This document shows, piece by piece, positions 4,352 to 34,669 of a stretch of 64,000 nucleotides of DNA (position 1 is the stretch's first letter; every line of letters starts with the position of its first letter). The DNA comes from Bryum argenteum. Taxonomy: Eukaryota; Streptophyta; Bryopsida; Bryales; Bryaceae. Below the pieces are notes generated by a model. That model was not told the DNA's origin, searched no databases, and saw only the letters and a program-made list of their open reading frames with translations. Made by a program: the position numbers and the translations under genes. The DNA lies in NCBI GenBank assembly GCA_037043015.1, contig CM073322.1, forward strand, positions 20,798,364 through 20,862,363. Direction: 5' to 3'.

Positions 4352-6115
4352 TCAAAACCTAGTAGTCATCCCCATGAGACCCCGCAGCCTGCTGTTGGTA
4401 TCCCTCGGTACTCCTTTTGTTAAAAGGTCAGCAATTTGATGACGAGTGTGAACGTAACTGACTTCAACATCCTTCGCTTCAACACGCTCCCGCACATACA
4501 AGAATCGAATATCAACATGCTTTGTCCTTTTGTGATCGACAGGGTTTTTGATAAACCGTATTGTTGACTGATTGTCACAATGGATTGTAGTAGGCCCCTT
4601 CTGTGGAATTCCAATGCTGTTAAGCAAACGCTTCAACCAAACTACCTCACGACTGGCTTCATTCGCTGCAATCAACTCCGATTCTGTCGTAGATTGAGCC
4701 AAACACGGTTGTCTTCCTGAAACCCAAGCAATTGCACCGTGACCCATGATGAAAACATACCCTGTTCTTGACTTTCTGTCTTTGATATCATTTCCAAAAT
4801 CTGCATCGCTGTATCCAATAATCTTCAAGTCTTTTCTTGGATCACCATAGTAAAGTATCCCCAAATGAATTGTCCCCTTCAGATATCGAAAAATTCTTTT
4901 CACTGCCATCCAGTGAGATCTTCGAGGTCTTTTATTCCATCGTGCAGTATCACTTCTCGCAAAAAGAAATATTTGGCCTTGATATCACGCTTGCATACAT
5001 GAGAGATCCAACTGCGTTACTGTATGGCACAGTTACCTCAACGTCAAGATCATCTTCCCCGTCTTGCTCAACCAACAATTTCCTGGGTCTGCAGGTGTGG
5101 CTACCGGGTGGCAATCTGACATCCCAAACCTCTCGAGAATGTCGATTATATATCGTGACTGGTTGATAAAAATCCGGTCTCTTGAGTCACTCAATTTGAC
5201 CTGAAAACCCACATAGTAATCTATCTTCCCAGTCTTAACTTCGAATTCCTTCTCCAGATGGTATATGATCTTACTCAGCTCCATCTTGTCAACAGAGCAT
5301 GCCATACCATCATCCACATGTATTCCAACTATGGTTTTTGTATTTCCAGCTGTGTAGTAAACACACGCATCTGCTGAGCTCACCAGAAGATTGTACATTC
5401 GCAGAAACTGATCAAACTTCTTGTTCCATTTACGAGCAGCTTGCTTTAAACCATACAGGCTTTTCTTCAACTTATACACCGGATCACCTTCTTTCTCATA
5501 TCCTTCAGCTTGTTGCATGTAAATCTCTTCATCCAAATTTCTATTTAGAAAAGCTGTTGCTATATCAAACTGCATTATGTGCATTTTGTAAGCTGCTGCA
5601 ATTGCAAACATGCTTCTCACAGAATCATGCTTAATCACCGGTGCATATGTTTCCTCGTAGTCAATTCCTGCTTTCTGCGAATACCCCTTAGCCACCAGCC
5701 TTGCTTTGTATCTCTCTATTTCTCCATTTGGTTGATATTTTATCTTATACACCCACTCACACTTAACAACAGTTCTTCCCTTCGGTAATCTCACTACATC
5801 CCAAGTTCCATTCTTGATTAGTGATTCGAACTCTTGATCCATTGCCTTTTTCCATTTATCTGCATCGGGTAAATTCATCGCCTCAGTGTATGTCGTCGGT
5901 TCCTGTTTGATCCTTGTTTCATCGGTGCTTACACTATACGCTTGTGAATGAACAGTGTCTCCTTCAACGTCATCGTCTGTCAATTGTCCAGTCATCCCAT
6001 ATAACTCTGTTAGCATACGAAACTTTGGATTCAAAGGTTCACTCTGATTACTATCATCACAGGTAGGATTCGGCAGTTTAGAAAAATTCTCGTGGAGAAT
6101 AGTACCAGATTTCAT
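4352..6115 (-). pseudogene. Ty1-copia reverse transcriptase and RNase H (3' half of pol)
   Basis: This is the second half of a copia polyprotein. From 6115 down it shows the RVT_2 domain: first catalytic Asp in FDIATAFLN, and HVDD in place of the usual YVDD. RNase H follows from about 4909, with catalytic residues in GYSDADF, TTESE and HCDNQS. Around 4910-5035 the frame shifts twice, within the connection region that contains a SLMYASVISRP motif. The front half of the same polyprotein lies 26.7 kb away at 32844-34613. The gene is therefore broken both by the insertion at 6118 and by small indels. It lies directly upstream of the 3' LTR, as expected. Confidence 0.93.
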
Positions 6116-6207
6116 GGAAAGAATTTTTCATGAGGAGAAAATGAACGTAAACAGATATCAGACTCAATAGGTATGTATATTTCTCACCGTTATACAATTG
6201 CAATCAC

Positions 6208-9140: not shown

Positions 9141-10295
9141 GTTGTGAGCAATCTTGCACAAGGTTAGCATATAGTTTAGATATACCTTAAAAGGATTAAC
9201 CTACAAAGTCAAAATTGATGGGAATGGACCACAAAAGATATTTACGTATTTAATTTGAAATTTGTTTCACCGTTCCAATATACATGAAATTGGATTTCTT
9301 ACACGTTGGATGTAATTTGTTTTTTTATTTTCACAGGTTTAATTGACGAGTCACCTTTGTGGAGATTATACTATTTATATGGGTTTGATATTATTAATGA
9401 CCTCGTATTCGATGTTATGCATTGTCTTCCATTGAACATTTTCAAGAAGTTCATTGAAGACCTTTTAAAAAAAATTGGTGTTAGCTCTGCCCAGAAGACA
9501 ATCATTGAAGATGCATTGCATACCGTACGAACCTCTCGTTTGAAGTCCATGGCTCGAAGGTGGCCGACGAATCCAACAACGAGGCTCGGTCACTTCAAAG
9601 CGGAAGAGTACCAAGTATACATTCAATATTGTCTTCAACATACGATGGATTCTATGAATGCTGATTATGATTCCCCTTTTTTCCAATGCGGGTTGCTTCT
9701 TATATTACTAGCAAGACTATACTATTCTTACTCACGTGATAATGGATGGACCCAAGACATGATCAATTCAACTACAACCTTATTCCAAACATGGAGGCGC
9801 CTTTCTATGGGTTACGACGGACCCAATGCATCTATCTTGGAACATGTAGTTGGTTCAGGCCATTTAATGGACGATATCCGGAGGCATGGGCCAGCAGACG
9901 TTTATTGGTGCTACCAGTTCGAAAGAGAAGTGAGCACATACATGCAAATTGCCAAGAATACAAATTCTTATTTATATGATTTTACGTTTGCTACAAACAT
10001 TTGTCGTACCCTATTTACAGAAACTATGAATTTTGTTGATCTTGATCAAGATGGCATGTACCCTGAAGATCGAGCCTTAAGAAGATTACATTGCAATCTA
10101 TTCAAATCTAGGAATTGCCCACATGTGATTGCTCACACTACAAGTCAATGTTATGATTGGCATGAACAATGTGCAATTAGGGTAAATTCCCAAGAAATCG
10201 CGCTTAAAATATGGAAACGTGATATGCAACTTTTGTCAGAATCGTGCACTTGTAAAAAACTAATTTTACAGAAGGGCATTATAATCAGGGTTGTC

Positions 10296-10795
10296 AGGAC
10301 GACCGGACCAGGGGGCGACCGGTCGACCATGGTCCGGTCGTCCTCAGCCCCTAGGACCTGTCGGTGACATAACGGGTTTTTTATAATTTACCTAGGGTAA
10401 ATTACCGTCCGAACAATGGCCGACCGCACTTCGTCCCAAATGGCCGACCGCACCCCGTCCGACCGTTTGACCGGCCGACCGCACTTCCCGTCCGACTCTC
10501 CGACCGGCCGACCCGGTCGGTCCGGGACCGAGCGTTCGAGGCCGACCGGTGTCGCGGTCGGGCGAGGTCGGCCGCCGACGCCCCCCGAGACCGGCGAGGT
10601 CGGCCGCCCGACGACCGGGACGTGACGACCGGGTCGGTCGGGCCGACCGGGGGGTGACGACCGGCGAGTCGGCCGCCGACCATCATCCGCGACCGGGCGA
10701 GGTCGGCCGCCGATCATTAAGGCGACCGGCAAGGTCGGCCGCCGACCGCCGGCGGGCGACCGCCGAGGTCGGCCGGCTCAAGCCCGACCACTTGA
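10296..10795. repeat. GC-rich GACCG/CGGTC array, left end of hAT element
   Basis: This block of about 500 bp is built from short irregular repeats of CCGACC, GGTCGG and GCCGACC in both orientations. It contrasts sharply with the AT-rich surroundings. It lies between the terminal repeat and the TATA box of the transposase gene. Arrays of short motifs in this position are usually transposase-binding sites in hAT elements; that role is inferred. Confidence 0.85.
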
Positions 10796-10844
10796 ATTCA
10801 ACGGCAGAAATTCAAATTTCAACGGTCAAATTCAGGGTTGAAGG

Positions 10845-10851
10845 TATATAA
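10845..10851 (+). promoter_or_regulatory. TATA box of the hAT transposase gene
   Basis: TATATAA lies just inside the GC array. It is followed after about 25 bp by a leader (GGCCTCATTTCACTTCC) that resembles the leaders of the other three genes in the element. Confidence 0.65.
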
Positions 10852-11051
10852 GAGAAGAGACACAAGGCCTCATTTCACTTCCGAATTGTGAATGCGACCC
10901 AAAGTCTCTGAGCTGCATAACTTTATGTTATGTGTCCGTTGCTTGGTACGTATTGAGTTCGGAAGTGCAGAGTTCGTTTACGAACTTTTGACATTTTTTT
11001 CTACATATCTATTACCACGTTTGATCATTTTGAGGTGTCCTACCTATCAAA

Positions 11052-13923
11052 ATGGCCAACAAATCATCCTCACCTTGGTTCACCGATGTTCATGAAGTAC
11101 AAGGCCAACCTACCACGACCCCAACTCGTCCAATGCAATCTACATCATAAGGTTATGAGCAAGAGGCTAGAACGGCAAACGATCACCTTGGTTATGAAGG
11201 CAAGCGTGGGGTCCGCCTTAATACGATTACGCTTTGTCCAAAATTGAACACCCGAGTGATGGATTTATTTCAAGATGTGACGGGCGGTTCCCTCCACATA
11301 ATGGAGAAATGAGCGGTTTTCATTCAATACCATCGTCATCGAAGTTCCGAATGTTGGCACGCCAAGGTCCACCGGGTGGAGACTCTTGCGTGGGATCTTC
11401 TCAAGCTACCCCTTCGATTCCATCAACACCTTTAGTTGGATCAATCTCCGCTGTTCCTAACTTTGCGGGACAAGTGAGGTTGGTGGGCATATCAATAGGG
11501 CGATGAAACAATCGTGATTGAAGATGGTTTTTCTTTGAAGCGGATAGGCGGGAACTAGACATACTTTGGGCAAAGTTTTTTCTATGAAGCAAACGTACCG
11601 TTTCTTTGTAGCACGAATCCGATCTTCAAGGAAGCCGTAATGAAAACCGCTTCTTTCCGAAAACCATATGTCCCACCTTCTTACCATGACATTCGGACAA
11701 AGTTGTTGGGACAAGTAAAAAGTGATCTAGAAGGAAAACTCGATAGTAGACTCAAGGAGAGCCTTCGGAAGTTCGGGGAACTTTAGCCATGGATGGATGG
11801 TCATCTCGTGAGTAGTCGCCCTCTTGTAAATGCAATGCTAGTGACTCTGCTTGAGAGCTTTTTCTTAGGCGCCGTCGATACTACCGGCAAAGAAAAGACA
11901 AAGAATGTATATGGCCTCTATCATGGTCAAGTTCATCAAACAAGTTGGCCCGAGAACGCGTTGTCCAAGTCCGCACGGACAACGCTTCAGTAATGATTAA
12001 TGCCTCTCGATTAGTCGTTGAGGATTATCCCCATATATTCATTCGGGGATGCGCCACGCATGCGATGGATTTGTTGTTGGAAGATTGGGAAAGGCGTCAT
12101 GGGTGAAAGAAACTTTGGAAAAGGCCAAGGGCTTGGTCAAGTTCATCAAAAATCGTCAAATGCCTTTAGCCGTGTTTTTCGTAAACATGAGACAAGGTTT
12201 AGCCTATTGATGCCTGGAAAACAAGATTTGCGTGCAATTTTATAATGATAGATCGCTTATTGCAGGTTCGCGATTCTTTGGAGCAAACTGTTGTAGATCC
12301 CCAGTGGTTGTCATATGCCTCGAAGAAGTCTCTATCAGCTAGAGATAAATTACTGAGTCCCGCAACGTAAGAAAAGTGGTTTTGGATGACGGTTTTTGGG
12401 CGTTGTACAAACTTCCGAGATATGGTGGCCCCGATGAGTGTATGCTCTTCGAAATTCGACGGCAAGGAGCCTTGTACGGGCAAGGCTTTGCATATCGTTC
12501 GTCAGCTCGAGAAGCATGTACTGACGCTATCTACAGAACCATTTTCACTCCCGACGGATTTAGCGGACATTGCGAAGGAGAACTTCTACGCAAGGAAAAA
12601 GATGATGACAACAGATTCTGCTCTGTCTTTGGTGCACTTTTGAATCCTTATTTACTACATGACAAAGAGTTAGCGGATGATACCGCGAGGTCCGGCATGG
12701 GTGCGGGCGTGTTCTAAAAACTCTATGTGCTCCGGGCACTTATCATGATGTGGCGAATGAATATATGGCATTTCGAATGAGGAGTGCACCATTTCATGAG
12801 ATGTTGGATCCTCTTGAGTCGAAATGTTCTCCCTTTGTTTGGTGGGAAATTGAAGGGTTTGTTGGAAAACTCCTTGCTCCGATTGCAAAGCGAATCCTAG
12901 CTCAAACGGTGTCATCGTCGGCGTGCGTGCGAACGCAATTGGAGCAGATTACTCTTTCGTTCACGATAGGAAGCGGAATCGGTTGCTACCGGAAAGGGCG
13001 AGATGACTTGGTCTTTGTATACACCAACTCAAAGTTACTTGCAAACGCAAAGTTAACGGATGAGAAGAGGTGGTACTCGGAGAACTTGGATGTAGAGGAT
13101 CGTGACGTACGTGACTCGAGGATGAAGAAACCCCCATAACTCAATTGGTGAAGGCTTTTCGGATCACGTTTTGGAGGACCTAGAAGATGACCTCAATAGC
13201 ATCCCCGCTATGAGCTTGCAAGATGCTTTGAACGTCCCGAACACCACGTATGACTTTGTTGACGATGAAGGTTCGAGGCGGATGATCCGGATGAATTGTT
13301 GCCCCTAGCTCATTTACCACGGTTTTGAAGGATACCGACAAAGTCACATGTGATAATACCCCTCGTGCGGACTAACTCCAAATACGGACGAGAACGTTGT
13401 TCAATGTGAAAATCGTGGGGATGATACTCATGGCCGTACTGTTACGTTGGATCCAATAACGATAAATATGACGTCCGCCACTGCGGACGAACCTGCTTTG
13501 CCTGCTGTTGCCTCTCGGTCTCTATTTCAAAAATGTGATTTAGAGGTCCCTACAGTGATGGAGAAATCTTCCAAACGTTTGGTGTCACTTTCAAATCAAG
13601 TGCGACCTCGAACAGTACGTTCCAATTCCGGCGGAATCTCTAGTGACTCGGATGTACCGCTTCTTCAATTGGGATACAAGAACCTTCCAGGAGGTTCAGG
13701 GCTACGGAAGAAGGAGCCTCCAAGAGTTATGACGAAACGTAAAGCTCCAATGCTTCCGTTTCTTCATGATAAACCGAAGAATCCCCTTGATGCCATTGAG
13801 AATGCGGGAAAATTCAAGATCATTCATTCGGGAAGTCACAAACGAAGAATCAAACAAGAAGTTAGTAGTGATTTCAAGATGACCCTACGGGATCTAGCGG
13901 AGTCAAGTAAAAGGAGACAATGA
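11052..13923 (+). pseudogene. hAT transposase (DUF659 plus hAT dimerisation domain), frameshifted
   Basis: Several frames must be combined, so the gene is decayed. From 11580 to 12100 the plant DUF659 core is clear: a FFYEANVPF-like segment, a PPSYHDIRTKLL block, the first catalytic Asp in AMDGWS, and the second in VRTDNAS followed by a Cys/His motif (GCATHAMDLLLED). At 12750-13075 the C-terminal dimerisation domain reads WWEIEGF ... AKRILAQTVSSSAC ... DDLVFVYTNSKL, the standard end of plant hAT enzymes. A further 158-residue basic, low-complexity tail follows (13447-13923). Stops or shifts occur near 11147, 11312, 11790, 12100 and 12717. The ATG at 11052 is chosen because it lies a short leader downstream of the TATA box. 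The enzyme would cut at the CAGGG ends of the element. Confidence 0.9.
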
Positions 13924-14309
13924 TTATGCAATTCCTACCGATGTGGATGAATAGACATTAATTACATGCTCGGACACGTAGTAGAGGTCTAGCATACTTC
14001 GTGTATGCTAGAGATAGTATAGCTCGTGAAACTTTATTACCAAACTGTTGATATGTTCGTACTTTATTTTGTCTCGAAAATGTCGGTGAATAGTCAACAA
14101 AAGACTATTACATCATAAGAAATAAAAAACTTCATTATAATAACCATGCATTACAAATCCAAAATGGTATGCGACCCTATTCCGGGATCAGAAACCCTCC
14201 TTAACCGTCTACGCTTCTCTTTGGATTTCTATTACATCGCAATCAATGCTCTTCTCAGATCAATTGTATTTGCTATACTACGAGTCCGGGGTCTTTGGCT
14301 TGGTCTAGC

Positions 14310-17300
14310 AATTCTACCGCCCTCGTCGTATTCTTGATCCATCTGCAAGAATTTCTCTGTTGTTGTTGCCCGACATCCAATCGTCCGCTCTCATTGCCAT
14401 CATCCCTTTTCCGTTTCTTGGGTGGATTAGCATTTTTGAACGGAAGATTTTCATGGCCTCCTCGATTCGTCCCACCACATCCTTCACAAAGGAGTCCTCT
14501 GCGTGATAGACACCAATAACTCCGGCCGGGTCTTTGATCATTGTCGTCCAATGAGTAATGATGTTCTTAATGCGCGACTCAAATTTCTCTACCGCCTCCC
14601 GAAAAAGTACGATCTGCGTCTTTGAAAGATTCCTCCTTCGTTGAAATCCGTAAGTGTGCGGCCTCTTCCAACTTGGCTAGGACTAAAGCCCTTCCAATCG
14701 GCCTATCATCGTACTTCTTGTACTCCTCTCCAAACTCAATGTCACTTGTTACCTCATGCCACAAACCATCTTCTCCCTTCTCCACTCTCTTTGGAGGGAA
14801 TCGGAAGAAACGATTGTGTTCGATGCTCAATGTCCTCCAAAGTTGCGGCAAAACATCTCTCGTTGCTCATTGTCTTCAATATCTCGCGCCCTAATCTCCA
14901 CCTCGTAGTCACGTGTCATCCAAAGCAATGGATCTGTCTTGCCTACATCATGCATGAGGAGCTGGTGTTTTGATGTTGAACTATCCCATTCAAGTGCTTT
15001 CCCCACTCACGAAAGTTGTGAAGTTTCTTTGGAAGTTGATCCAAAGGGAGATTCCATCGGTTGAACTCGTGCCCGGTGGCATGACATCGCGCATCCCCAT
15101 CACTTCGTAGAATCTCGTGCTAATTGGAGAACGACATATAGGACATGATGATTTTCCCCGGGCAGCGCTTGCTATGCAAGTAACATGAAAGTTATGGCCA
15201 CATTGGCCTAGTGTGTACGCTCCTTCTGGACCGAAATGATATCGGCACATGCCACATTTTTCCTTCAGTATTGTCGGTGGGGGGTCGCATGTGTAAACGA
15301 CATTTCGATTTGATTCCACAAAATGCGATGAGAATGAGTTGTATGGCACCCATCCTTCTGCCACTTCCAAACTCCAATCAATATCATCATCTTTTCCCAT
15401 CCGATTGAAATTTGTTCGCTCCATCATCTCCTCGACATCACCCCAAATAGTGACCTTAGTAGGTTCGTGTTCTCGTAATCTTTCGTATTTTTTAAATTCC
15501 TCCAATGATGTATTCACATGTTCACTTGAACCACATGATTTGGCGGCGATCTTCTTCAGATTATGTTGTGCCTTTGAAACCATGGCCTCCCTATCTTGAA
15601 GTCGGTGAACCCAAGCCAACCAAGGCAATATGTTCTCTTCGCGTGGTGTATAATCCACATTTCTCAATGCCATTCGTATGGATTCTAGTTCAGCTCGTGC
15701 CTCATCTCTCTGCTTCATCATCGCTTCCAATTGCATTTCCAATGTTTATTTAGGACATTGATTATGTAGGCAATCTTTTCCCTTCGAATGTGTATCATCC
15801 TCTACACGCACGCCCCTCCTTCCATTGTCCTCCGATTCCGTATCATCGTCCAAATCGATGATTTGTTTTCCTTTCTCCTGCATCTTGAACCGTGCTTCCT
15901 TCTCTTGAATGTCCTCTCGCCTCGGGGCCCTCGCTCGCATGATGGAGTACCTTTCATCTCCGGGCCATCACTCTTATTATTCCCATCATTATTAGATGGG
16001 ATAAGATCACCTTCCCTTTCGATCCTTTCTCCAATTTTTGAAATTGGAGAATTATCTTTGGTTTACGGGGACATCTTCCACATCACCTTCTTCGGGAGGA
16101 TTCAAAATGTTCATCGCTTGCTCCATGAGATTGCGTGAGTACGGGGATTTTCTCGCGCTCATATCCATTAAGTTTGAAATCATAAACCACCTTGTCAATC
16201 ACGGTAATTGCTACGTTATACTTATCCTCAAGACTTATAAACTCCTCCGTATCCTTTATCCTTGCTTTCACATACGGGAGCCATGCCTCGATATCTTCTC
16301 GTAGTCTATAGTCGCTTCTAGCATTCGAGGCGTCATTATGGCAAGAGTTTGAGCCAATTCTAAAAACCGTGGAACCATAGCAAAGAACAACTTCAACCCC
16401 GACTTTCATCTCGGTCCCACTTGCAATATATGGGTTTTTTTGGTGTCTTCCCACTTCATCTTCGTCTCACCATCTGGAATGGTTTCGTCGTATATGACCT
16501 TCGCTACTTCGTCAATAGAAGTGAGATACTCTCAGCTTTCTTGTTGCTTGGTACTCCTTCATATAATTCTTCGAAATTTGACCACCAATCCTTCTCCATC
16601 TCATGAGTAATGGAATCGGCATGGATGTTGTTTCCATTGGTTTACTTGGCCCCGCCTCATTCGATTTTGGATTATTATCGGTCAAATTTAGGCCATTGGG
16701 AATAATAGGGTTATCTCGGAATGAGAGGGGAGAGTACCTCTTCCACTACATTCTCTAAGTCCCCACGTGATCTTGCACCGCATTCGCCTCTTCCAATGAT
16801 CGCTCTCCAATCGTTTACATCCCGAAGCCTATCAACTGCAGATTGTTCGTTTGATAGACCATCCGTGGCAAGAGGAATGTCCGTATCCTTTGTAACGACA
16901 TTCTCATCTTCCGTTGTATCCTCTTGACCTTTGTTTTTTTTTTTTTTTTCTCAAAACCTCCAAAATATGCTTTGTCAAGGCGGATTGTGGATCAAAGCAA
17001 TCCGGGATATGCTTCGCTTCCTTTCAATGCGAAGCGGAAATTGAGTATTAGTTTGGTACGTGCTCCAATTTATCTTCCATTTGTAGTATCAACTCAAAGA
17101 TATACCATTGCCAACAATTGGTAACAAAAGTACCCTTTTGTTTTGGCACGATCCCGAACAAGGCCCGCCATACTTCCTCCTCGCACACGGTGGATAAAGT
17201 GATCATCCTTGCATGTTGCCGGGTTGCAACAAAAAAAGTTCTTGGTATGAATCGCATGACATTCTTTAGGCCAAAGCTTGCCAATGTGAAACATCTTCAC

Positions 17301-17503
17301 ATATTTCTTGCAAATTTGAGCGGTCCAATACTCCGTCACCTCCGATTCCCAACCGCGTTCCACTTTAATGTCTTCGTTCTCTAAAATCTCCCAATTCACC
17401 CATGAGTTGCACCTTTTTGTTTATTCCTCTTCTTAGGCGCCTCTCGCGATATCATCGAATTCTCCACCTCCATACTCGTGTTCACGTTCTCGATCGACGT
17501 CAT
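14310..17503 (-). pseudogene. Transposon-borne RING-H2 protein gene
   Basis: Starting at the ATG at 17503, the frame gives a short Lys-rich leader, then a module with KGxxxNWE ... GWE ... CKKYVKM ... KLWP and a Cys/His cluster (about 17399-17230). After frame changes come an acidic region (IIDLDDDTESED, about 15850) and a charged helical stretch. A complete RING-H2 follows at about 15260-15130: CGMC, then CGHNFHVTC, then CPIC, with spacing C-x2-C-x14-C-x-H-x2-H-x2-C-x10-C-x2-C. A conserved-looking tail reads to about 14310. RING-H2 domains usually recruit E2 enzymes as ubiquitin ligases. Several stops and shifts mean this copy is probably dead, although the 250-residue RING part is open. It faces the transposase gene and shares its N-terminal module with the Y/G-rich gene at 23350. 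Confidence 0.75.
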
Positions 17504-17677
17504 CGTGCAAGTATCACCGAAGGGTCCACGGGACGGCAACGGCCGCAACAAATGTGAAAAAAACGACCCCTTCTCCTCTCCAACTAGAATGCAAAGCAGG
17601 GCGCCTTAGCAAATCGAGGCAATTCAATTGGGTTACCATGAGGAGAGGAAGTGGTGGAAAATGAAGCCGACGGCCCT

Positions 17678-17683
17678 TTATAG
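17678..17683 (-). promoter_or_regulatory. TATA box of the RING gene
   Basis: On the minus strand it reads CTATAAAGGG. It lies at the inner edge of the GC array and is followed by the leader GGCTTCATTTTCCACCACTTCC, similar to the leaders of the other three genes. Confidence 0.65.
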
Positions 17684-17689
17684 TGCCCT

Positions 17690-18045
17690 CATGCCGGACC
17701 GCCGACCAACCGACCGCCTAGCCAGCCGTCTGAGCCCCCGAAAGCCCGGGCTTGGCCATCGGACCGGCCGTCCGGTCCCGGACCTGCCGACCGCCCGGAC
17801 TGCGACCGCCCCGGGACTGACCCCGACCCGGACCTGCCGACCGCCCCCCGGACCTGCCGACCGCCCCCCCGGACCTGCCGACCGCCCCCCGGACCTGCCG
17901 ACCGACCCCCGGACCGGCCGTGGGGCCATCGGGACCGTCCGATTGATCGCCCGGACCGCCCGGGCCTGGCCGACCGACCCTGACGGCCGAACCTTCGCAG
18001 GCCGGGCCTGGCGGAGCGGCCGCCGGCCGCCCCTCTAAACCCTAA
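17690..18045. repeat. GC-rich CCGACC array, inner left
   Basis: Like the end arrays it consists of CCGACC/GGACCTGCCGACC units. It includes five near-perfect tandem copies of ggacctgccgaccgccccc at 17840-17910. No CAGGGTTGTCA terminus lies beyond it, so it does not look like the end of a separate element. Confidence 0.85.
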
Positions 18046-20796
18046 CCCCAAAATTTGTTGTGCCCCTTTACAAACCCTAGGCATCAACCAATGAAGATCT
18101 ATCTATCTCTAAAATATTAAATTTGGGCCCTCGAAGTGGGCATTAGGACTTTATATTGCAAGATCCACTCTATGACCCACTTTGTAAAGTAGAGCTAAAG
18201 TTAAGGCACACTTTAAGTCCAAGTGGGCTCAACTCCAAATGGGCCCAACTTCAAATGGCCTCTAGTATAAAGTAGCCGTAAAAAGTGCCAAAACCCCTCA
18301 AAACCAACTTGTTATGAATTTCACTTCAATCCGAAAATGATGAAATTTAGTAGATTCTCTTGTGCACTAATAAATTATCATCTCGCAATCTATGAGGCTC
18401 TATGAATCAAACTTTTATGCACATGACTTACAAGAGTATGTTTTTTAGGGCATCCTCAATGGAGACTAAATAACGGCCCTTTGTACCAAATTCTATGTTT
18501 TGAGTGATTTTGAATTAAAAAATACAATTACCAACGTAAGAAGCGCATGTAAAAAAACGTGAGATAGATCTCAAGAAATAAGAAATGTGGATAAAATTTT
18601 ATTCCCAAATTGTGTAAACTTTCCCTACAAATTTAAAGTTGTTTTATTTAAATTTGTTTTAGGTTTTTTTTAAAAAATTAGACCTAGCTGCTTAAAAGTT
18701 TCTACTTAACCGTCTCCCTTGCAACGAATTTCTTATACTAATAGGATAATTATAAACTGGTAATTACTGTTCTTCAAGAAGATAGATAGATACAAACTCC
18801 AATTTTCATATCGAATATAACAATTGTATATAAATATAACCAAAGAACTCACGACAAAAAATAGTCTCTTCCATCTTACCCATGAGTTTATATATCCACC
18901 TAAAAGTCTTTCTATAGTCTTTTACTTTCCAATTTCTAAAAACAAATCTTATTAATAGATCAATTATAGAAATCTAACTCTTCATGTATGTAAACCATTT
19001 ATATTTAAAGTAGGATATGTATATTTACGTATATACTATGTATTAATAAATTAGAATATGTATATTTATGTATGTACTTTATGTTTCATAGTATAATATG
19101 TATATGAAGGTATATATTATATGTAATATATATTATAATTGTATCGTATTATTGTTGAATTTATTATAAATATAATATTTCCTGTATACATCAATACATG
19201 TATAGTATATATACTTATGTATGTACTTTTTGATTTATAGTTCTCGCACACAAAGTAGAATTGATTTGCTTTACCTCTAAATATGTATTTAAGTAGAACC
19301 ACTATTTATATAGAACTTGTTTACCTCTAAATAAAATCTTAGCATTAAATCGCTATTTATGTAGAGTGACTTTACCTCTAAATATGTTTTTAGCAAAAAC
19401 CGCTCTATCTTTACCGTATAGTGTATATATATTATTTATTTTATTATTTTCATTTTAGAGGGGACCCCAGTTAAGAACCAACATCCCGGATGAGACTATA
19501 ACATGTCCAATATATAATAAAGGAATTAGCCTACAAAGGTTTGTAAAATAATGTATTGGATATGGAAAAATAAAAATATTAGCTAGGGGAAATTAATAAA
19601 TCCTAGACCATGAACCTTATATCCTATGCTCAAGTGATTTCATCCACAATATACTCTAAATGAAAAAGCAATGGCTATTCAAATCATTCTATTCCCTAAT
19701 CAATCCATCAAAGTTTCTAATATAAGAATAATCAACTTCATTTAACATAAAATAGAAGTACTATACGTGTACAAGATCAAATATGATTATAACTTTATAA
19801 GTTAATGCCGTTATTGCCATATGTTAAAAACTTATAGGGTGCGATATTTTTATTAATTTATTTGTAACGCTTTTTACTTCTCTTAATTTATGATCACAAT
19901 ATAGAAAACAATAGAATCAGTATATCAATTACCTTTACAAGAGGTAAATAAATAATTACTCAAATTAATACACAACGATGAAATTATTTCTAAATGCACA
20001 TGAAATAATATAGACCATAAAATGTGGACAACTTAAGGGCTAAATAGGAAGTTTAAATATTGACTAATACGGTAATACCAAAGTTATGAAAACAAAATAC
20101 TCACACATGCTCACCTACATTTAATATATACTTAGATCTCTCCAATGTTAGACATAAGTATACTCTCATCAAGGAATAGGTAAAAAGTCCGGAAAGTGAT
20201 ATGAGAGGATTTAGGGCCACCTCAAAGTGCACAATAGGGGCCAAGCCATTAATGGGGCCAATACATGAAAACATCTCCTTGTGAGAATGGATCAATATTT
20301 GACAAAAGTTGGGACATTCAAGAAATGAATGAAAATTCATGGCCTAAAAGCGTTCTCTTCATTCAAATTAAGAAAGAATATTTGTAAGAAATAAAATCAA
20401 TGAGAACAAATCTAAAACATGGACTCTCGCTAATAATAAGAATTGGCCCCATAACCTTCGTTTTCCTTCTAGAAAAAATGGGCACCAACTCCCAACACCT
20501 TCACTAATGGGGGAATAGGCATGGGAGATATGTTGGCCTTGACTCCTCTTGCAAGGAGTCCCTTATTATAGAATTATTTGGAGCCTAGAGTATCTTTGTC
20601 ATAAAACATTCTTGTTTCTGACAAAGAGATCTTCCCGACATTCCCTTGTCAGAACATTCCCTACCCCGATTTAGACGCCACGTGTACGCGAGACGCTAAA
20701 TATAGAAATGCAAATATGCAATGCAGGGAAGTGAGAGAAGTTGAGGAAACGGGAGTTCTGGCCTTCTGGGGAGAGGCAAGAAGAGGAGGGGGAGGG

Positions 20797-20980
20797 AGGT
20801 ACGCCGGCCGACCGCAGGCCGGCCGGCCGGCCGGTCTCCGGGCCGGTCCCCGGTCGCTCGGCCGGTCCGCGGTCGCCGGGCCGGTCGGTAGGCCGGTCAT
20901 GCGGTCGGTCCCATCGGTCGGCCGGGCACGAGCGGCCCAGATTGACCGATCGTACATCGCCATCGCCCGCTTCGGGTTTT
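20797..20980. repeat. Orphan GC-rich GGCCGGTC array
   Basis: This 180-bp block of CCGGCCGG/GGTCGG motifs lies in the middle of the AT-rich spacer. Unlike the four other arrays it has no convincing TATA box on either side and no reading frame beyond it. It may be the remnant of a fifth promoter or end module. Confidence 0.7.
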
Positions 20981-21188
20981 TCTTTTTTTTTTTTTATTCT
21001 TAGTTTCCATTGTGTTCCTGGAATCTTTCAAAATTACATAGGATCCTTTTTAAATTTTAATCCCTCTCAGATTTCTGTTATTAGATTCTCAGTGATTATT
21101 ACACAATGAAAAAAGGAATCCTATGTTGATTTGTGAAATGCTATATATTCTTTATTCACGGATATTGGTTTAGTGGTTTAGGGTTCCG

Positions 21189-21230
21189 GGTTTAGGGTTT
21201 AGGGTTTAGGGTTTAGGTTTATGGTTTACT
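21189..21230. repeat. Short interstitial telomere-like repeat (TTTAGGG)
   Basis: Three to four perfect GTTTAGG/TTTAGGG units with degenerate neighbours. This is the plant-type telomere motif, and it supports a plant source. It is too short to be a real telomere. Confidence 0.85.
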
Positions 21231-22923
21231 TAGAGATTTCATGATTGCAGTAGCTTTGTTATATGAATTTTCACTTTAATCTAGAAGTGATGAAATTTCG
21301 TAAATTCTCTTGTGTACTAACATATTATGATCTCGTAGTGTATGAGGTTATATGACTCAACTTTGGGGCACATGACCTACAACTATAACTCTATTTCAAT
21401 ATTGCATGGTTGAGAATGTAAGTTGAGGATCCTCATTTTAATATAGGACCCTTATTTTGGAAATGCGACATTTGGTAAAAAATGGACATTAGGTTTGGGG
21501 AGTCTATAATCTTAGATGCTATGTTGAATGTTGAAAATACTATCAATATATTCCTTGCAACAAACTCGTGATTTATTCCATGTCAATAATAATAACAATG
21601 CGATGGAGAAAAGTGGCATTCTAATTGATTAAAAATATAAATCAATACTACACCATGCATACACGAATCCCTTATTTTCATTCCACACACAATTGAGTTT
21701 CCAAAGATTTCCAACACCAATCTTTATAAGTTGATGCGATATGTTAAAAACTTTTAGAGTTGGATATTTTCAAAAATTTATTTGTCTCCTTTTTACTTCT
21801 CTTTATTTGTGATTGCGAAATAGAAAACAATAGAGTCCTCTTTCTATTACCTTTGTAAGAGGTAAATAAATAATTATTCAAATAAATACAATAAAAAAAT
21901 GGTACTAATAAATATGGAAAAAGAATATGTGCAAATTAAGTACAATGATATGTACTACATTATAAATATACTCCTACCTTAGTTCAAGGGTGTCAAACAA
22001 AAATAGCCAATAATAGAATGAGTTGTTTAGGCATAATGTTTTTTCAGTTAAGCCTATTCTTATGTCTAAATGTGGTCAATGTAAGGCCTAACACGGTAAT
22101 ACCAAAGTTATGAAACTAAATGGTCACACATGCTCTATAAGTCTATTACAATATTACATGTTTGAGAATGTAAATTGTGCATCTTCATTTCAATATAGGA
22201 CCCTTCATTTGATAATGCGTCATTTGGTTAAAAATAGGCACTACGTTTGGGGAGTATATAATCTTAGATCCAATTGGCAAAAAAAAAAAAACTTATTTTG
22301 TTCCTTTAAGTCATTTTGAAGTATTCTAATTATAATGTGAATAAGAATGAAATTAGAAAATACGAGTAATTATTATATACGGTATAAATAAAAAACCACG
22401 TCTATTTACATAAAACCTCATCATTGACATGGAAGACACAAATTAGGATATAGTAGATTCTATCATCCCTGGTTCTAAATTTGGGACGCATGTATGTATA
22501 ATGAAATTTATATGTTATATGTTTTATACGTACACATATTTTCATGAACGCCAATAGCCTTCTATTATAGTTCATGAGAAAATATATTTTTAAGCTAATA
22601 CATGTTCATTGTAAGTTTGTAACCCTTAACCTCAAATGCCCAAGGGGGTGTAGACTCTAGAGCCTAGAAACACACGTTTTGCAAAGTGCAAGAGATGAAA
22701 ATAAAGGTTAGCAATCTAGATCCCAACCGTACAACATTGTAGAAGACTTGGTTTAGGTCATGTGGAGGAAATTTGGACTCCAAGACTAGAACTATTAAAA
22801 AAAAATTCCTTTCTTTGTGGGCCATGGGAAAGCATGCCTCATGTTTGAAAAAATCCAAAAAACAAGACTTGGTTCTCCATCGCGTTCATTTTCTTCTCCC
22901 TATGGAAACCCAACAGTTGTTTA

Positions 22924-22925
<2 letters not shown>

Positions 22926-22973
<48 letters not shown>
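22926..22973. repeat. 48-nt poly(A) run
   Basis: An uninterrupted A run directly borders the inner right GC array. It may be a retroposed tail or a slippage-grown A tract; no retroposed gene is seen to its left. Confidence 0.95.
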
Positions 22974-22974
<1 letters not shown>

Positions 22975-22987
22975 AACAAAAAAACAA

Positions 22988-23275
22988 AGCCCCCGGGACG
23001 GGGACGGGGGCGGCCGACCGCGGGACGGCCGGCGACCGCCCTCGCCCCCCGTCGGACGGCGGCCGTCGGATCCGTCGGCCGCGACGGATCGGTCGGCGCG
23101 ATAGCCCGACCGATCCGGCGGCCGCGACGGATCTGTCGACCGACGGGCGGCTCGCATCGGCCGCCAATGCGGCCATCGGATTGGCCGACGATCCTGGCCG
23201 ACCGATGGCGGAATCGACCGCGGCCGACGGAGATCGGACGGCCGGGAAACGGGCGAATGCCGACCGCCGCGATCG
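22988..23275. repeat. GC-rich array, inner right
   Basis: Dense CGGCCGACC/GATCGG motifs, variants of the other arrays. It lies directly upstream of a TATA box (23277) and the Y/G-rich gene. Confidence 0.85.
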
Positions 23276-23276
23276 G

Positions 23277-23288
23277 TATAAATAAATA
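23277..23288 (+). promoter_or_regulatory. TATA box of the Y/G-rich gene
   Basis: TATAAATAAATA at the inner edge of the GC array, followed by the leader GGGCTCATTTCTTCTCACTCG, similar to the leaders of the other three genes in the element. Confidence 0.7.
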
Positions 23289-23349
23289 GCCGACCGGGCT
23301 CATTTCTTCTCACTCGTGCGCCTGCCCGTGTTGTGGTTTTCCATGTCGA

Positions 23350-25009
23350 TTGCGCTCCTCGAGTCCCCTCTTGATAATCGACGCCATTTTTTTGCGCTTT
23401 TTTTTCTTTGTGGGTGAACAATATGCCGAGGAACGACGTACTAGTGCACCCAAGGGCAAGGCCCCGGAGATGGATTGGGAAGCAAATCGACGATCCAAAT
23501 TGTGTTGCCAAGATGGATGGGAAGATGAACCGGCGAGAATTTGGAATTGCACCATGTGCAAGCGATATGTGAAGATGAAACACCTCATGAAGTTATGGCC
23601 AAGAAATCAAGCGATTATATCGGGCCACGACGCGAAGGACTAGCCAAATAGCTGATTCACAAGTCAACATTTCACACTTCGTTATCATGAAGTGACCATT
23701 GCCGTTGGAGTACGGAATACTAGGCCGGAAATCATGTTATATTCCAACATGGCTATGGTTTGGGCGTAAATCGTTCTACATAAGAACGTGAATTGGAGCA
23801 CCGTAATGTTTTGAATGTTGCCGAATTGGATCGGAGCCATGATTTCATACCAACTAGTTGGCTTGGACCCGATGATTGTATGCCCCTTTGGTCAAATCGG
23901 ACATATACGGAGATGTCGGAAGTTCAAGATGAAGAAAGTACACCTCCAAGGAGATATGGAGGTCGGACACGAATTTCTCAAGATACACCTCCGAGGGGAT
24001 ACGAGGGTCAAACACAACATCAACAAGACACACCTCCGAGGGGATACGAATGTCAATCAACATCAACAACATACACCTCCGAGGGGATATGGGGTCACAC
24101 AAAGAGATAATTATAATCGCAAAGAATAACAAGGGTATGGTACCAATCTCTTTTGGCATAGGAAGTGGTGGGTATTATCCCGGTAGCAATATATACGGTC
24201 CAGAACCACTACTCCCGAGACATATAGGCCGAGAGCATCCAAGGGATACGTACCAATCCGGAGGCCAACACGATACAAGTCCGAATCTTTGGAGGAAGAT
24301 ATATGCCAACATATCCTCGGGATACATACGAGTCGGAGGCCGATACGGTGGAATGAGTGCTCCGGAGAGCTATACGCCAACATATCCTCGGGAATTTAAC
24401 GATGTTCCCGGCCAATATGGTAGAGGACCGGTGAGTCCAGTAGTACCATATCCCAACACATCCAAGGGACACATACGAGTCTCGAGGCCGAGTATGGGAG
24501 AGGACCTAACATTCGAGAAAGGTACCCCACAACGTATCCTCTTTGGATCATACGATGCTCACAACCAATACGGTAGAAGACCCGAGGTTCCGTATAGCTT
24601 TAGACCAACGTATTCAAGAGATACGCATGATCATCACGGCGAGTGCGGTAGAGCTATTACCAATCCCGAGTACCGTACTCCAAGTCAAGCAAGAGATGAA
24701 TACGAGCCCAGTTGGAATTACCGGAACAAGGATCGTGAAGAGCATATCACTCAGTATCCATATCCAGGGTATGGCCAACATGCATATGGGAGTAACAACA
24801 CTCCCCCGCCACCATTCCGAACTCGTGAAGAAGAAGATGCAGAGTTTGAAAGACAACTACGAGAGGCAACAATTCAAAGTCAAGCGGAGTACATCCGCAA
24901 GCTTGAAAATGATCGTATTTACGACGAGCAGCGCTTGTATGATGCTTATTCGCGAGGGCGGTACTCAGACCAAGCAGGGCCAAGTGGAACACAATATGAT
25001 AAGGACTAG
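23350..25009 (+). CDS. Transposon-borne Tyr/Gly/Pro-rich protein gene, probably frameshifted
   Basis: The first part (about 23440-23640) carries the module KGKAPEMDWE ... GWEDE ... WNCTMCKRYVKM ... KLWPRN, clearly related to the N-terminus of the RING gene. It stops at 23643. From 23793 other frames read four tandem units of TPPRGYEG type (23936-24092). Then comes a long open frame (24050-25009) rich in YGR, YPR and SY repeats, with a coiled-coil-like charged end (TREEEDAEFERQLREATIQ) before the stop. I recognise no enzyme. Low-complexity aromatic/Gly proteins often form assemblies, but no function is claimed. Frame changes suggest decay or introns that I cannot place. Confidence 0.5.
23936..24092 (+). 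repeat. Four tandem copies of a ~45-bp coding unit
   Basis: The motif acacctccgaggggatac recurs at about 23940, 23984, 24029 and 24076 with intervening CAACATCAAC-type sequence. It encodes TPPRGYEG repeats. Confidence 0.85.
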
Positions 25010-25984
25010 GATGCAAAGTAGTTATACATTTACATATAGGCATGTTGTAATGTCTTTGTACGTACATGTAGTATTTGGATGAGAACTCTATTCTCCATAT
25101 GGTAGAGGTCATTTTTAAGACCTTCTTAACCATGTTTTGTTGGTAAACGGACATCATATGAATGATATACGGAATGTAGAACCATAACCTATATTACACA
25201 TTTATTTGAGTAAATATGTTATGATTCCATTTATTAACCAGTTTGTTTAAAACTTTATTTGGGATTTGCTTCGGAGGCAGTGTCTCCACGGTGCAAAGGG
25301 GAGTTGGCGATTGTTACCAACAAAATTTTGGACATATTTTTCCCTATATGTAATCAAATGTAGTAAATTCATGCAAAATTTGGGAGGCTCATTCCTCTTG
25401 ATTGACATTCTTACAAGTTATTTTCTAAAAGCGAGTCCGAACAATACTATAGTAAAACATGCACGTCATTACGTATATTTCGTATTATAAAGAACTTAGA
25501 GTGGGGTATGTGAGTGTAGGAGTTTGTGATTTTGAGGTAACTTAGTTCTAACATTTTCCATAATCTAGAATTTTGACAAATTAAAATATGTAATTCAAAT
25601 TTACTAATACATTTTGAGCTTGTGTTGGTAATTTACGGAGGTCGCCATCAAAATTGGTAAATATTATGACTTAAATAATATTGGAATTTCAGTAGTGATT
25701 CGCTTATAAACATATGAGAAGAAAAATAGAAGATAAATCGCTAAATTTGAATTACCCAACCAACACTTAAAAATTGAATCAATAGGTTTTTCTGGGCTTT
25801 ACCCTAAAGGCCTCATCCAAATGGTGCAAAGGGGCAAAATATTATAATAAACATAAGTATACTTGGTGGGCCAAAATTTGAAAGGCATGCAATGCATTTG
25901 AAACAAAGAGTATTGTTGCACTGAAAATAGAACAAACATACTAATTCATAAACTATAATAAAACCGATATGCGTAAAACAAATT

Positions 25985-27478
25985 CTACATTCTCCTATTC
26001 GTAATTCGTCCGAAAATGCTCACGAGGCGTAGGCCAATGAAACATATCGCTAAACCGTGAGATGATATGGGACAACCCTCCAGCGCCGTCACGACTCTCG
26101 TTGCATACTCTATCCATGTAAAGATGGAAAGCTTGTGCAAGGTCTTCATTGGAGAATACCGAAGTATTTCGGTTTCCACGTTGCAAGCTCTCGTACGCCG
26201 TAGACATGGTCATCCCATTAATTCTTTGTGCTATACGGGCCGTGGCAAACTCCTCCGAAGCAATCGAGTATTTTGGAATAACCTGTAAATCCTCACCCGC
26301 TTTGTACAAGAACGCCACTCGTGGATCTACCCAATAACGTTTTCGCAGGGTCTCCACCATCTCCTCACGTTTTGTAAATGTATAAAGGGATTGCATTGGT
26401 TCCTGAACCGTTGTGAGAACCCCAATCGCATACTCCGATATACACTCGTGATTCATCGGCGGGGAAGTGGAGAAGGATATTATCTGGAGATATATCATTA
26501 TGGAGGTGGTGGCTCTTGTGGACCTCGTTCATGATATGCAACAACGCCCAAGCAAGCTCTGTCCGTTTTTTACGGAATCGAATCAGTTGATGCGCCCGAA
26601 TAACTTCGTCGTCAGGGTAATTCCCAAAGTTCAAATGTACAAAGACATCGTCACCATAATCCATATCGCGTTCAAAGATCTCTCGAATAGTCCCGCCATT
26701 CCACCAAAACGCATAGCCTTGATTCTTCACTGGATGAATGGCCACAAAGCGGATCACACCCGGGTGTCCAATCCTTATCGCCATAGACTCATTCATATGC
26801 TCCAATTTTGCCAACTCCGGTCGTGTCAAGTGGTGAATGGAAGTTTTTGCAGCAAATTCCCAAAATGGTTCAATGCCTGCAACACCTTCGAAGCGAACTT
26901 TGACAATAGTACCATACCGTCCCTTCAACCTCGTGTCGTCAACTCGTATGATTTGAGCTGTATCCGGAATGGTAACCAAATGAGTCAATCGCATGGTTTG
27001 AGTTCGTCGTCCCTCTAGCGATTGCCACCATGTTCCGAGCCTCGACGGTGTGAATTCTTTGAAAATGCCCTCATTTGGGCGGAAAAACAATCATCACCCT
27101 ATTCACCACGTCAACGAAATCCTCATCACCCTCCCGAAATATCCTCCCATATTTGGCTATTACAACCTTGGGATTCCAGTGCATCCTTCACCCTATTCTC
27201 CAAAACCACATGAACCCTCGTTTTCTCTGTCTCTTTCTCCACCCACTGGATCTTTGAAGCACTTCTATCATGAGATCTCTCATTTCAATCTTGAACTTAC
27301 GGATGCCCTCCTCCCGATATCTCACATATTTGCTTTCCAATGCTCAAAGATCATTGGCCTCATAGAATTTGACGGTAAATTCTATCAAGAATACCTTACA
27401 AGCGTCGCCCGGGACCTCATGAGGCTCAAACTTCTCAAAGAAGTTCGCAACACCCTTCTTCTTCTTCTCCTTCGGCAT
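25985..27478 (-). pseudogene. Transposon-borne protein kinase gene, frameshifted
   Basis: The ATG at 27478 opens a Lys-rich start (MPKEKKKKGV), and an in-frame stop falls near 27343. A long frame from about 27090 to 26430 carries a kinase domain: a glycine loop GRYGTIVKV, the ATP-binding Lys in EFAAKT, the catalytic loop HNDISPDNILL with Asp and Asn in place, and CDWG in place of DFG. At about 26430 the frame shifts, and the C-lobe continues (KRYWVDPRVAFLYKAGEDL) to 25995. The HxD, Asn and DxG residues are all present, so the ancestral protein was probably an active kinase. It lies opposite the Y/G-rich gene. I do not know the exact kinase family. Confidence 0.8.
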
Positions 27479-27689
27479 CTTGATCCCAAAAAGGAAATAT
27501 GTAAAGTGTGAAGTTTTTAAAAAACTTTTCAAAAAAAAGAGCAAAAAAAACTCCCCCGTATAACAAGTGACTTCCTTCCTCCAAAAGACAAGGAGCCAGT
27601 GGGGACGGGAATCACAAAGAATTCCCGACCAGAGAGAAACTCCGCATCCTCTCTTCGTGAGAATGGAGGAAAGAAGTGAGAAAAAGGAG

Positions 27690-28260
27690 GCCGGTCGGCC
27701 TTTTATAGCGGCCGACGGCCCGCCGATCGGACGGGCCGATCGGTCGCCGGCCGACCCGATCGGACGGCCCGCCGGATGGCCGACGCGGCCGACCGGCCGG
27801 ACGGCCCGACCGCTGGCCGACCGCCCTCGAGCCGACCGACCGCCCGCCAGGCCGACCGACCGACCGCTGGCCGGCCGGCCGCCGCCGGTTTTGCCGAAGC
27901 GATCCGTCCGTCGACGGCCCGACCGCCTGGCCGACCGACGGTCGGCCGGCGCCCGATCCGGCGGCCGTCGGGCATGCGGACGCGCGCCAATCCAACGCCC
28001 GCAACGTTCCATCTTGATCCGACGGCCAGGATTTGATGCGGTCGGCGGCCGTCCGATTTGACGGCGACCAGACGGGGTCGGTCGGCCACCGGGATCAAGA
28101 TCGGCGGGCCGAGATCTTGCCAGTGGATGATCCAACGGCCCCGAGTTACCAGCACCGGGTAACTCCCATTTACCCCCCCGGACCATGGTCCGGACTATGG
28201 TCCCGGTCGACATAGTCCGGACTACGTCCGCGGACTAGGTTTACCCCGAATGTCGACCGA
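27690..28260. repeat. GC-rich array, right end of hAT element
   Basis: Dense CCGACCG/GGCCGACG motifs, then the palindromic block with GGACCATGGTCCGG and TAGTCCGGACTA before the terminal repeat. It mirrors the left end in composition and in the shared palindrome. Confidence 0.85.
27701..27707 (-). promoter_or_regulatory. TATA box of the kinase gene
   Basis: On the minus strand it reads CTATAAAAGGCC, at the inner edge of the GC array, followed by GGCCTCCTTTTTCTCACTTC. The layout matches the other three promoters. Confidence 0.7.
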
Positions 28261-28777
28261 TTTGACAACCCTGATTATAATAGGTCCAAAAAGATTGAAG
28301 AAAGAAGTAATTACATCTCGTGGAGAACAAAGTTGTCTACAACGTTTGTGGAAATTGAAATCCTCTCAACATTTTGATAAACACTATTATTTATTTCAGG
28401 CAATTGTTTGGAAGGGCAAGCTATATCGAGTTGGTGATACAGTGGTTGTGCGATCCGATAATGAAGATAGGGTATACTTTGGTATCATTAAGAAATTTTT
28501 CATAAATGTATATCGTGAAAAAGTTGGTGTGTTTTTTCAAGCCCACTATTATTCAGAAATCGAATACGAATCAAGAAATGAAAGAGTCATCGATCCCCAA
28601 TCGAATATGAGTATTATTGAAGAATCTACAACAATACACGAAGTGGATAATATAAGAGAGGTGTCGTACCTTCTTCACAAGTTCATGCGAATTCCTGTCG
28701 TAAAAGATGATGATTATCGTCGCAAAAAATACTATGTAGCATACGAACTAGAGGATTTAAAACCTAGATTTTTATAG

Positions 28778-32835: not shown

Positions 32836-32843
32836 TTTCATGG

Positions 32844-34613: not shown

Positions 34614-34669
34614 GATATTGGCTCACCTTTCTGCAGATTACCACCTCTCTGCAGAGTAGTCTTGATCGG

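Follow-up and report, generated by a model that had tools for sequence, protein, structure and literature searches.

A giant hAT transposon of a moss genome, present as a dead 18-kb copy, with RING, Y/G-rich and kinase genes that probably work for the element

The window analysed here, a 64,000-nt stretch of DNA from a moss, includes, over 18 kb, a giant cut-and-paste transposon of the hAT type, present here as a dead copy. The whole element, a member of what we call family 1, spans 17,988 bp (10286..28273, + strand) and is recognized by its ends, an 8-bp duplication and colinear copies elsewhere in the host genome. Its terminal inverted repeats, CAGGGTTGTCA, lie at 10286..10296 (+) and 28263..28273 (−), and these are the only two exact matches to this sequence in the window. 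Directly outside them stand the two copies of the target-site duplication ATTATAAT, on the left at 10278..10285 and on the right at 28274..28281; the inverted ends and perfect flanking octamer of the original prediction are thus both present. Removal of the element and one octamer rejoins the flanks into a single open frame of 497 codons, and we therefore regard the element as a real insertion.

Four genes lie between these ends in the orientations +, −, +, −, as expected from the earlier proposal of a hAT transposase gene and three further genes in two convergent pairs. The order and orientation given there were right and the gene limits too narrow; the transposase gene was correctly called a relic, but this state is not confined to it, as all four frames are interrupted in the window copy. 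The transposase gene (about 11034..13951, +) encodes DUF659 and hAT dimerisation domains and is open over 972 codons in copies elsewhere in the host genome. The hAT dimerisation domain (PF05699) scores 36.9 bits in the transposase frame of copy E02, against a cut-off of 21.4, and just 12.4 bits in a broken frame of the window copy, while DUF659 scores 127 bits in the frame of copy E03. Hermes matches the transposase weakly (E 0.06), and candidates for the catalytic D, D and E of hAT enzymes can be picked out by eye in MDGWS, TDNA and ACERNW.

The RING-H2 gene (14235..17632, −), of about 1,100 codons, combines an N-terminal domain common to the Y/G-rich protein, a RING domain and a conserved C-terminal part. 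The RING domain (PF13639) reaches 36.2 bits against a Pfam cut-off of 27.3, with the C3H2C3 spacing C-x2-C-x14-C-x-H-x2-H-x2-C-x10-C-x2-C, and the protein is, by its form, a putative E3 ubiquitin ligase. The Y/G-rich gene (about 23290..25009, +) encodes a conserved N-terminal domain of ~150 aa, a disordered Y/G/P-rich middle and a C-terminal helix. The N-termini of the RING and Y/G proteins are homologous (E 2e-21), and family and fold searches gave no trusted match for this common domain. The kinase gene (25998..27478, −) encodes 494–495 aa where open, and copies elsewhere in the host genome retain an open frame of 494 aa. Residues K212, E231, D329, N334 and D352 are invariant across 41 aligned kinase sequences of the 120 listed. 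For the kinases P0001, P0002 and P0043, PF00069 falls below its cut-off and PF07714 passes barely in P0002 alone (23.2 against 23.1); a pre-computed PF00069 annotation is present on many kinase relatives.

Arrays of GCCGACCG-like words are found near both ends of the element and ahead of each of the four genes. They form GC-rich blocks in subterminal position before the transposase gene (10451..10778) and the kinase gene (27713..28022), and before the RING gene (17700..18029) and the Y/G gene (23009..23237). A further GC-rich repeat block (20773..20936) lies within an AT-rich non-coding centre (18045..22740) that separates the two divergent genes and has modules conserved in a sister family. 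The repeat words are enriched over shuffles in the GC-rich blocks of both families, and CGACCG occurs 62 times in the element and not once in the remaining 46 kb of the window.

In the host genome, family-1 ends with at most two mismatches were found 94 times (left) and 111 times (right), with none for a reversed-pattern control. When all 94 left ends were matched to the 100 listed of the 111 right ends, 79 pairs resulted, including 32 at 17–20 kb, 16 at 20–30 kb and 19 at 6–9 kb. Twelve family-1 copies, ten of them picked by end spacing and one (E12) by its open frames, were read end to end; all contain the four genes in the same order, although copy E07 has lost part of its RING gene by deletion. 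The window copy and ten copies with ~18 kb between their ends are colinear, at 93.7–97.8% identity. An element-order, same-orientation partner gene accompanies 284 of 405 scored places of the four proteins, compared with a mean of 6.1 and a maximum of 17 in 200 randomised controls, where the scored places are the best 71–150 of 852–1221 candidates per gene; the other 121 are without a listed partner. Fifteen four-gene sets in the same order occur among the scored places. The search for further copies proposed with the original prediction thus finds the same four genes recurring between the same ends with 8-bp duplications.

No copy with all four frames open was found among the copies read, where any small indels due to assembly errors would make a copy seem more decayed than it is. 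In the best of these, E12 on contig C9, the kinase frame is open, the transposase frame is broken and the Y/G gene contains a stop; the RING frame is open over 1122 codons, but its last part lies off the usual frame, and the match to P0121 covers only residues 1–389 of 429. Family-1 ends are also borne by shorter derivatives, one of which, at 1.26 kb, keeps just ~430 and 350 bp of the element ends; the centre and the genes are therefore dispensable in cis. Perfect 8-bp duplications flank 12 of the 14 insertions for which both ends were read. In copy E03 the octamers at the two ends do not match, and in E06 they agree at five of eight positions after the end is moved by 2 bp, which is our own interpretation.

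The sister element, family 2, is 17,364 bp long, with ends CAGGGATGTCA and the 8-bp duplication TTCATCGC. It has the same four genes in the same order, with a kinase 55% identical to that of family 1, and the same kind of ends, in that the terminal inverted repeats start with CAG in both families (CAGGGTTGTCA and CAGGGATGTCA). Only the kinase frame is open in the sister copy, and open RING frames come chiefly from family 2. Comparison of E12 with the sister gives dN/dS values of 0.28 for the transposase, 0.21 for RING, 0.15 for Y/G and 0.28 for the kinase, and four other copies give 0.11–0.30; all but the kinase values come from alignable fragments of broken frames, which favour conserved parts, and dS is nearly saturated. 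The two full-length open kinases differ by a dN of 0.385 and a dS of 1.41. Because the sister shares the set and order of genes and dN/dS is low between the families, selection seems to have kept the accessory genes as parts of the element, not as cargo. The original prediction, in which accessory genes of signalling type belong to a giant hAT lineage, gains support from the recurrent copies and from this independent second family.

Typical hATs are a few kb long (usually less than 6 kb) and carry one gene between 8-bp duplications, and most cut-and-paste transposons are small and dependent on one enzyme. No hAT with the present gene set was found in a literature search that covered part of the moss literature. 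The moss element shares 8-bp duplications, short inverted ends starting with CAG and a hAT dimerisation domain with Ac, Tam3, Hermes and Tol2, but differs in its size of about 18 kb and its four conserved genes; its transposase also has DUF659 beside the hAT features. VANDAL elements with VANC proteins are Mutator-type, for which 9-bp duplications are the norm, and Lanisha elements are reported for Ceratodon; the hAT dimerisation domain and 8-bp duplications rule out either identity for the moss element.

Lanisha (Maumus, McDaniel and Carey 2020) is EnSpm-related, in a clade with 2–5 bp duplications (PMC12730594), and so shares with the moss element a cut-and-paste mechanism but is not a hAT. 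The same paper describes TET/JBP genes in two kinds of rust-fungus transposon, hAT7 and IS3EU, with an alpha-kinase gene also in IS3EU (PMC12730594). Like the moss element, these are DNA transposons, one lineage being hAT, in which a gene for an accessory enzyme is conserved; they differ in the 7-bp duplications of hAT7, their fungal hosts and their other genes. The word "ring" is absent from its text, and "kinase" is used solely for the IS3EU alpha-kinase genes. VANC proteins of Arabidopsis elements are anti-silencing factors with targets that are often tandem repeats within the elements (PMC5735166). Here too a plant transposon has an extra protein; VANC action was tested by experiment, whereas for the moss element, where repeat arrays are the observed parallel, anti-silencing is an idea.

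Taken together, these data make it likely that the element represents an 18-kb hAT lineage in which a transposase and three accessory proteins are fixed parts, and the three accessory genes probably serve the element itself. The transposase would bind the ends and cut and paste as in other hATs, also mobilising the derivatives; the common N-terminal domain would bring the RING and Y/G proteins to one place, and the kinase would modify this machinery or host factors. Tentatively, and with somewhat less than even confidence, we suggest that the accessory proteins may jointly regulate the level or activity of the transposase or work against silencing of the element by the host. The GCCGACCG-like arrays are putative binding sites that could couple expression to transposition, a suggestion that we rate as less likely than not. 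A fuller reading, which we consider unlikely, is a self-targeted counter-silencing module built on ubiquitin and phosphate signalling. In such a module the common RING/Y/G domain would read the arrays found at the ends and at each promoter of the element, Y/G would form a local assembly, RING would ubiquitinate and remove silencing factors there and the kinase would set the timing; the AT-rich centre would serve the two divergent genes as a conserved common control region. If true, mosses would have, in a hAT element, a counterpart of VANC anti-silencing that arose independently. A lineage that keeps RING, partner and kinase genes through deep divergence would indicate that hATs are able to build up larger gene sets resembling those of viruses, and the three proteins and the repeat motif may offer handles on the ways in which large transposons of plants evade silencing or control it.

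Fragments of host DNA are often found in DNA transposons, and the proposed roles are read from sequence, so that the RING, Y/G and kinase genes might be host genes that an ancestral hAT acquired and that do nothing for the element. We give this little weight: each is a single long frame in all the copies read end to end, the order is kept in the diverged sister under the low dN/dS of the accessory genes (0.15–0.28), and open kinase frames persist, in seven of 14 kinase matches spanning residues 1–495 at at least 92% identity and in 11 of 33 family-2 kinases (54–57% identity). It is very improbable that the element is a composite of nested elements, with RING and kinase parts bounded by their own ends near 18045 and 22988, an outcome that would have refuted the original prediction. 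GC-rich blocks do adjoin both positions and resemble extra termini, but they lie directly before the RING and Y/G gene starts as two of the repeat arrays found ahead of each gene in both families, and the 17–20 kb unit recurs in end pairs, ordered four-gene sets and colinear copies.

The accessory genes might instead act on the host, for example by favouring inheritance of a carrier chromosome, with contig C1 possibly a sex chromosome. C1 makes up 17% of the genome, yet 44 of 71 transposase, 53 of 98 RING, 101 of 150 Y/G and 43 of 86 kinase places fall on it, although these were counted on the best-scoring subset. Among relatives with a plausible named host, those nearest to the element come from a moss, Ceratodon purpureus. 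The gene names of a Ceratodon kinase (47% identity, with 126 member sequences) and of a RING relative (46%, with 107 members) contain VG and UG, and the two are listed with contigs of 110.5 and 112.2 Mb; P0002, at 82% the nearest Ceratodon kinase with a name, has 3G instead and lies on a 24-Mb contig. Build-up on a poorly recombining chromosome would account for the bias without drive, and we consider action on the host improbable. The large size, several genes and weak sub-cut-off Pfam matches (poxvirus kinase, E 0.14; phage tail family, E 0.067) might suggest an integrated virus or virus-transposon hybrid, which is scarcely credible given the hAT transposase, the 8-bp duplications and the lack of any viral family above cut-off in the Pfam searches. 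When viral contigs were scanned with a single relative of the kinase, no match was confirmed, in a set that may not include host-genome records.

The target preference of hATs is nTnnnnAn, and by hand count the 12 perfect octamers have T at position 2 in ten cases and A at position 7 in seven. The giant hAT is a common resident of its host genome and is strongly biased towards a single chromosome.

The element at window positions 10286-28273 lies on a contig (C2:20798364-20862363 for the window) of an assembly of 258.8 Mb in 25 contigs. Its inverted ends are exact over 11 bp, with no other exact match within the window, and the 8-bp duplication ATTATAAT borders it on either side. Joining the flanks (9288-10285 and 28282-28777) with a single octamer kept gives one open frame of 497 codons spanning the site; the insertion is therefore real, and the element sits inside another coding frame. 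The inverted ends and perfect octamers of the original prediction are confirmed. A Pfam search of the two flanking frame pieces returned no match; by eye, the interrupted frame looks like part of an EnSpm-like transposon protein. Elsewhere in the window, long frames at 5033-6127 (-) and 32838-34622 (-) resemble, by eye, pieces of a Ty1/copia polyprotein, and a S/T/N/P-rich frame of 415 codons at 49901-51148 (-), with near-copies of an 18-residue repeat, is perhaps a host gene exon. An inverted pair of CATGGTTGTCA at 39028-39180, 153 bp end to end and with one mismatch to the element end, is possibly an unrelated small inverted-repeat element.

Whole-genome searches used 301 bp from the left end of the element and 254 bp from its right end; 40 of 116 candidates for the left query and 40 of 112 for the right were scored, and these matched. 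We read ten copies in full, picked as end pairs about 18 kb apart, so that their length is partly a product of selection. With the window copy these make 11 copies of the giant element (family 1), which share 93.7-97.8% identity and are colinear over their full length apart from short gaps and occasional deletions, among them part of the RING gene (copy E07), about 340 bp of the center (E02) and a GC-rich block (E04). Perfect 8-bp duplications flank nine of the 11; E03 has no 8-bp duplication at its borders, and the E06 octamers agree at 5/8 positions after a two-base shift of the end. Both borders were also read for three other insertions (copy E12 on contig C9, a copy of a diverged sister family on C8 and a 1,264-bp derivative on C4), and all three have perfect duplications, bringing the total to 12 of 14. 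The proposed giant hAT lineage therefore has further copies, found with its terminal sequences, colinear between the same ends and mostly with 8-bp duplications. Copies at loci L017-L042 carry many small indels, which disrupt the genes of almost every copy read and to which assembly errors in repeats could add.

A pattern search allowing up to two mismatches found 94 left and 111 right ends, while the reversed-pattern control found none at the same tolerance. Pairing the 94 left ends with the 100 right ends listed (of 111) gave at least 79 pairs. Of these, 32 are spaced 17-20 kb apart, 16 are spaced 20-30 kb and 19 are spaced 6-9 kb, with the rest below 2 kb (3), at 2-6 kb (1), at 9-17 kb (2) and above 30 kb (6).

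That the transposase, RING, Y/G-rich and kinase genes form one unit was examined at the best-scoring places genome-wide (71 of 1122 candidates for the transposase, 98 of 852 for RING, 150 of 1221 for the Y/G domain and 86 of 1125 for the kinase), counting as partners genes in the expected order and orientation whose spacing was 0.5 to 2 times that expected, with 1.5 kb added. The four genes do recur together as predicted: 284 of the 405 scored places have at least one partner gene, whereas 200 randomly shifted controls had 6.1 on average and never more than 17, and at 15 of the scored transposase places all three other genes are present in the expected arrangement. The remaining 121 of 405 places lack a partner, and some partners may fall outside the scored best places. 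Depending on the gene pair, between 2 and 5 scored places have the other gene within 30 kb solely in the wrong order, orientation or distance. A separate count of RING and kinase genes gave 37 pairs that are 5-30 kb apart and ordered as expected, four on opposite strands within 30 kb, and no same-strand pair in the wrong order.

Comparison of copies yields four long frames, readable from the sequence without any intron: transposase (+, 972 codons), RING (-, about 1,100 codons), Y/G-rich (+) and kinase (-, 494-495 residues). All four are broken in the window copy. Among the places scored, stop-free 972-codon transposase frames occur at two family-1 places, and 7 of the 14 kinase matches that cover residues 1-495 with at least 92% identity are stop-free. 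The longest family-1 RING frame (1122 codons, C9) departs from the usual frame near its end, matching residues 1-389 of 429; in family 2, the sister family, four places have stop-free RING frames of 1042-1159 codons matching residues 1-423.

The transposase has DUF659 and hAT dimerization domains, both above cut-off, and the RING protein is of the H2 type. Catalytic residues are kept in all 41 aligned sequences of the kinase family, but the PF00069 score is below cut-off for P0001, P0002 and P0043. Of 161 kinase relatives 120 were listed, and those among them named by organism are P0002 (82%) and P0043 (47%) from Ceratodon purpureus and P0023 (54%) from a metagenome-assembled genome labeled Bacilli, which we infer to be a mis-binned plant contig; one of the 31 RING relatives is so named, P0134 of Ceratodon (46%). 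The RING and Y/G-rich proteins are related in their N-terminal parts (34% identity across 110 residues, E 2e-21). In the Y/G-rich protein, this domain is predicted to fold, and all 34 aligned relatives (of 46 found) conserve it. Searches of known families and structures with the shared domain gave no trusted match.

The sister element on C8 is 17,364 bp long, with ends CAGGGATGTCA and a perfect duplication TTCATCGC; it has the same four genes in identical order, an open frame in the kinase only, and a kinase 55% identical to that of family 1. Comparing E12 with this copy by NG86 gave dN 0.296 and dS 1.04 for the transposase (788 codons), 0.282 and 1.36 for RING (441 codons), 0.273 and 1.86 for the Y/G-rich gene (98 codons) and 0.386 and 1.39 for the kinase (495 codons), where all but the kinase values come from alignable pieces of broken frames, which biases them toward low values, and dS is close to saturation. 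Four more family-1 copies, including E08, for which there is no Y/G value, have dN/dS of 0.11-0.30 against the sister. The kinase frames of E12 and the sister, both open and full-length, gave dN 0.385 and dS 1.41 when compared alone, and the open kinases of E11 and E12, within family 1, dN 0.024 and dS 0.060. From these sequence comparisons we read all four genes as having been under selection while the element lineage existed.

The non-coding parts are also shared. GC-rich blocks composed of GCCGACCG-like words stand near both ends and directly before each gene, with one more mid-element in family 1, and the sets of leading words in the two families overlap. The element has 62 copies of CGACCG and the other 46 kb of the window has none; the sister element has 57, with none in its 2.6 kb of flanks; the blocks alone hold 48 in the window copy (order-1 shuffle mean 10.1, maximum 20) and 42 in the sister (mean 7.7, maximum 15). 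The AT-rich center (18045-22740), 4.7 kb without a long frame, gave no RNA family and no unusually stable fold. In the sister center, 2652 of 4800 bases have a match in family 1, averaging 77.5%, on a single strand and in largely changed order; an in-order alignment covers just 18% of the family-1 center, at 81%; a shuffled center gave no match. Such conservation is unexpected for neutral DNA because the genes are close to saturation at synonymous sites, and it could come from selection or from exchange between families.

The 1,264-bp derivative (L044, C4:3735660-3736943), with its own 8-bp duplication, has only the giant's ends in common with it, about 430 bp and 350-490 bp; since it holds just these parts, they probably suffice for being moved. 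A class of 6-7.4 kb also carries the giant's ends. The 3 kb sampled inside one member (L043, C5:1157900-1160899) has no match to the giant, so the class, on this partial sample of a single member, looks like a non-autonomous family.

hAT transposases bind element ends and cut and paste. In the giant element, the RING and Y/G-rich proteins might act jointly through their common N-terminal domain, the kinase could target these two proteins, the transposase or host factors, and the repeat arrays may be docking sites. Small derivatives without genes in cis are expected for trans-acting proteins, yet are no proof of such action. Our literature search found no hAT element with a RING, Y/G-rich and kinase set; most subscription papers and Repbase lay outside its scope, so absence is unproven. 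The closest published case found is that of rust fungi, where TET/JBP genes have been captured by hAT7 and other transposons and an alpha-kinase occurs in IS3EU (PMC12730594). By analogy, VANC of Arabidopsis (PMC5735166) could be a model for a counter-silencing reading of the accessory genes.

The scored places are unevenly spread: C1 (44.1 Mb) makes up 17% of the bases, yet between half and two thirds of each gene's scored places are on it. This contig may be a sex chromosome; two Ceratodon relatives, one of the kinase and one of the RING protein, have V and U gene names, respectively, and are listed with contigs longer than 110 Mb.
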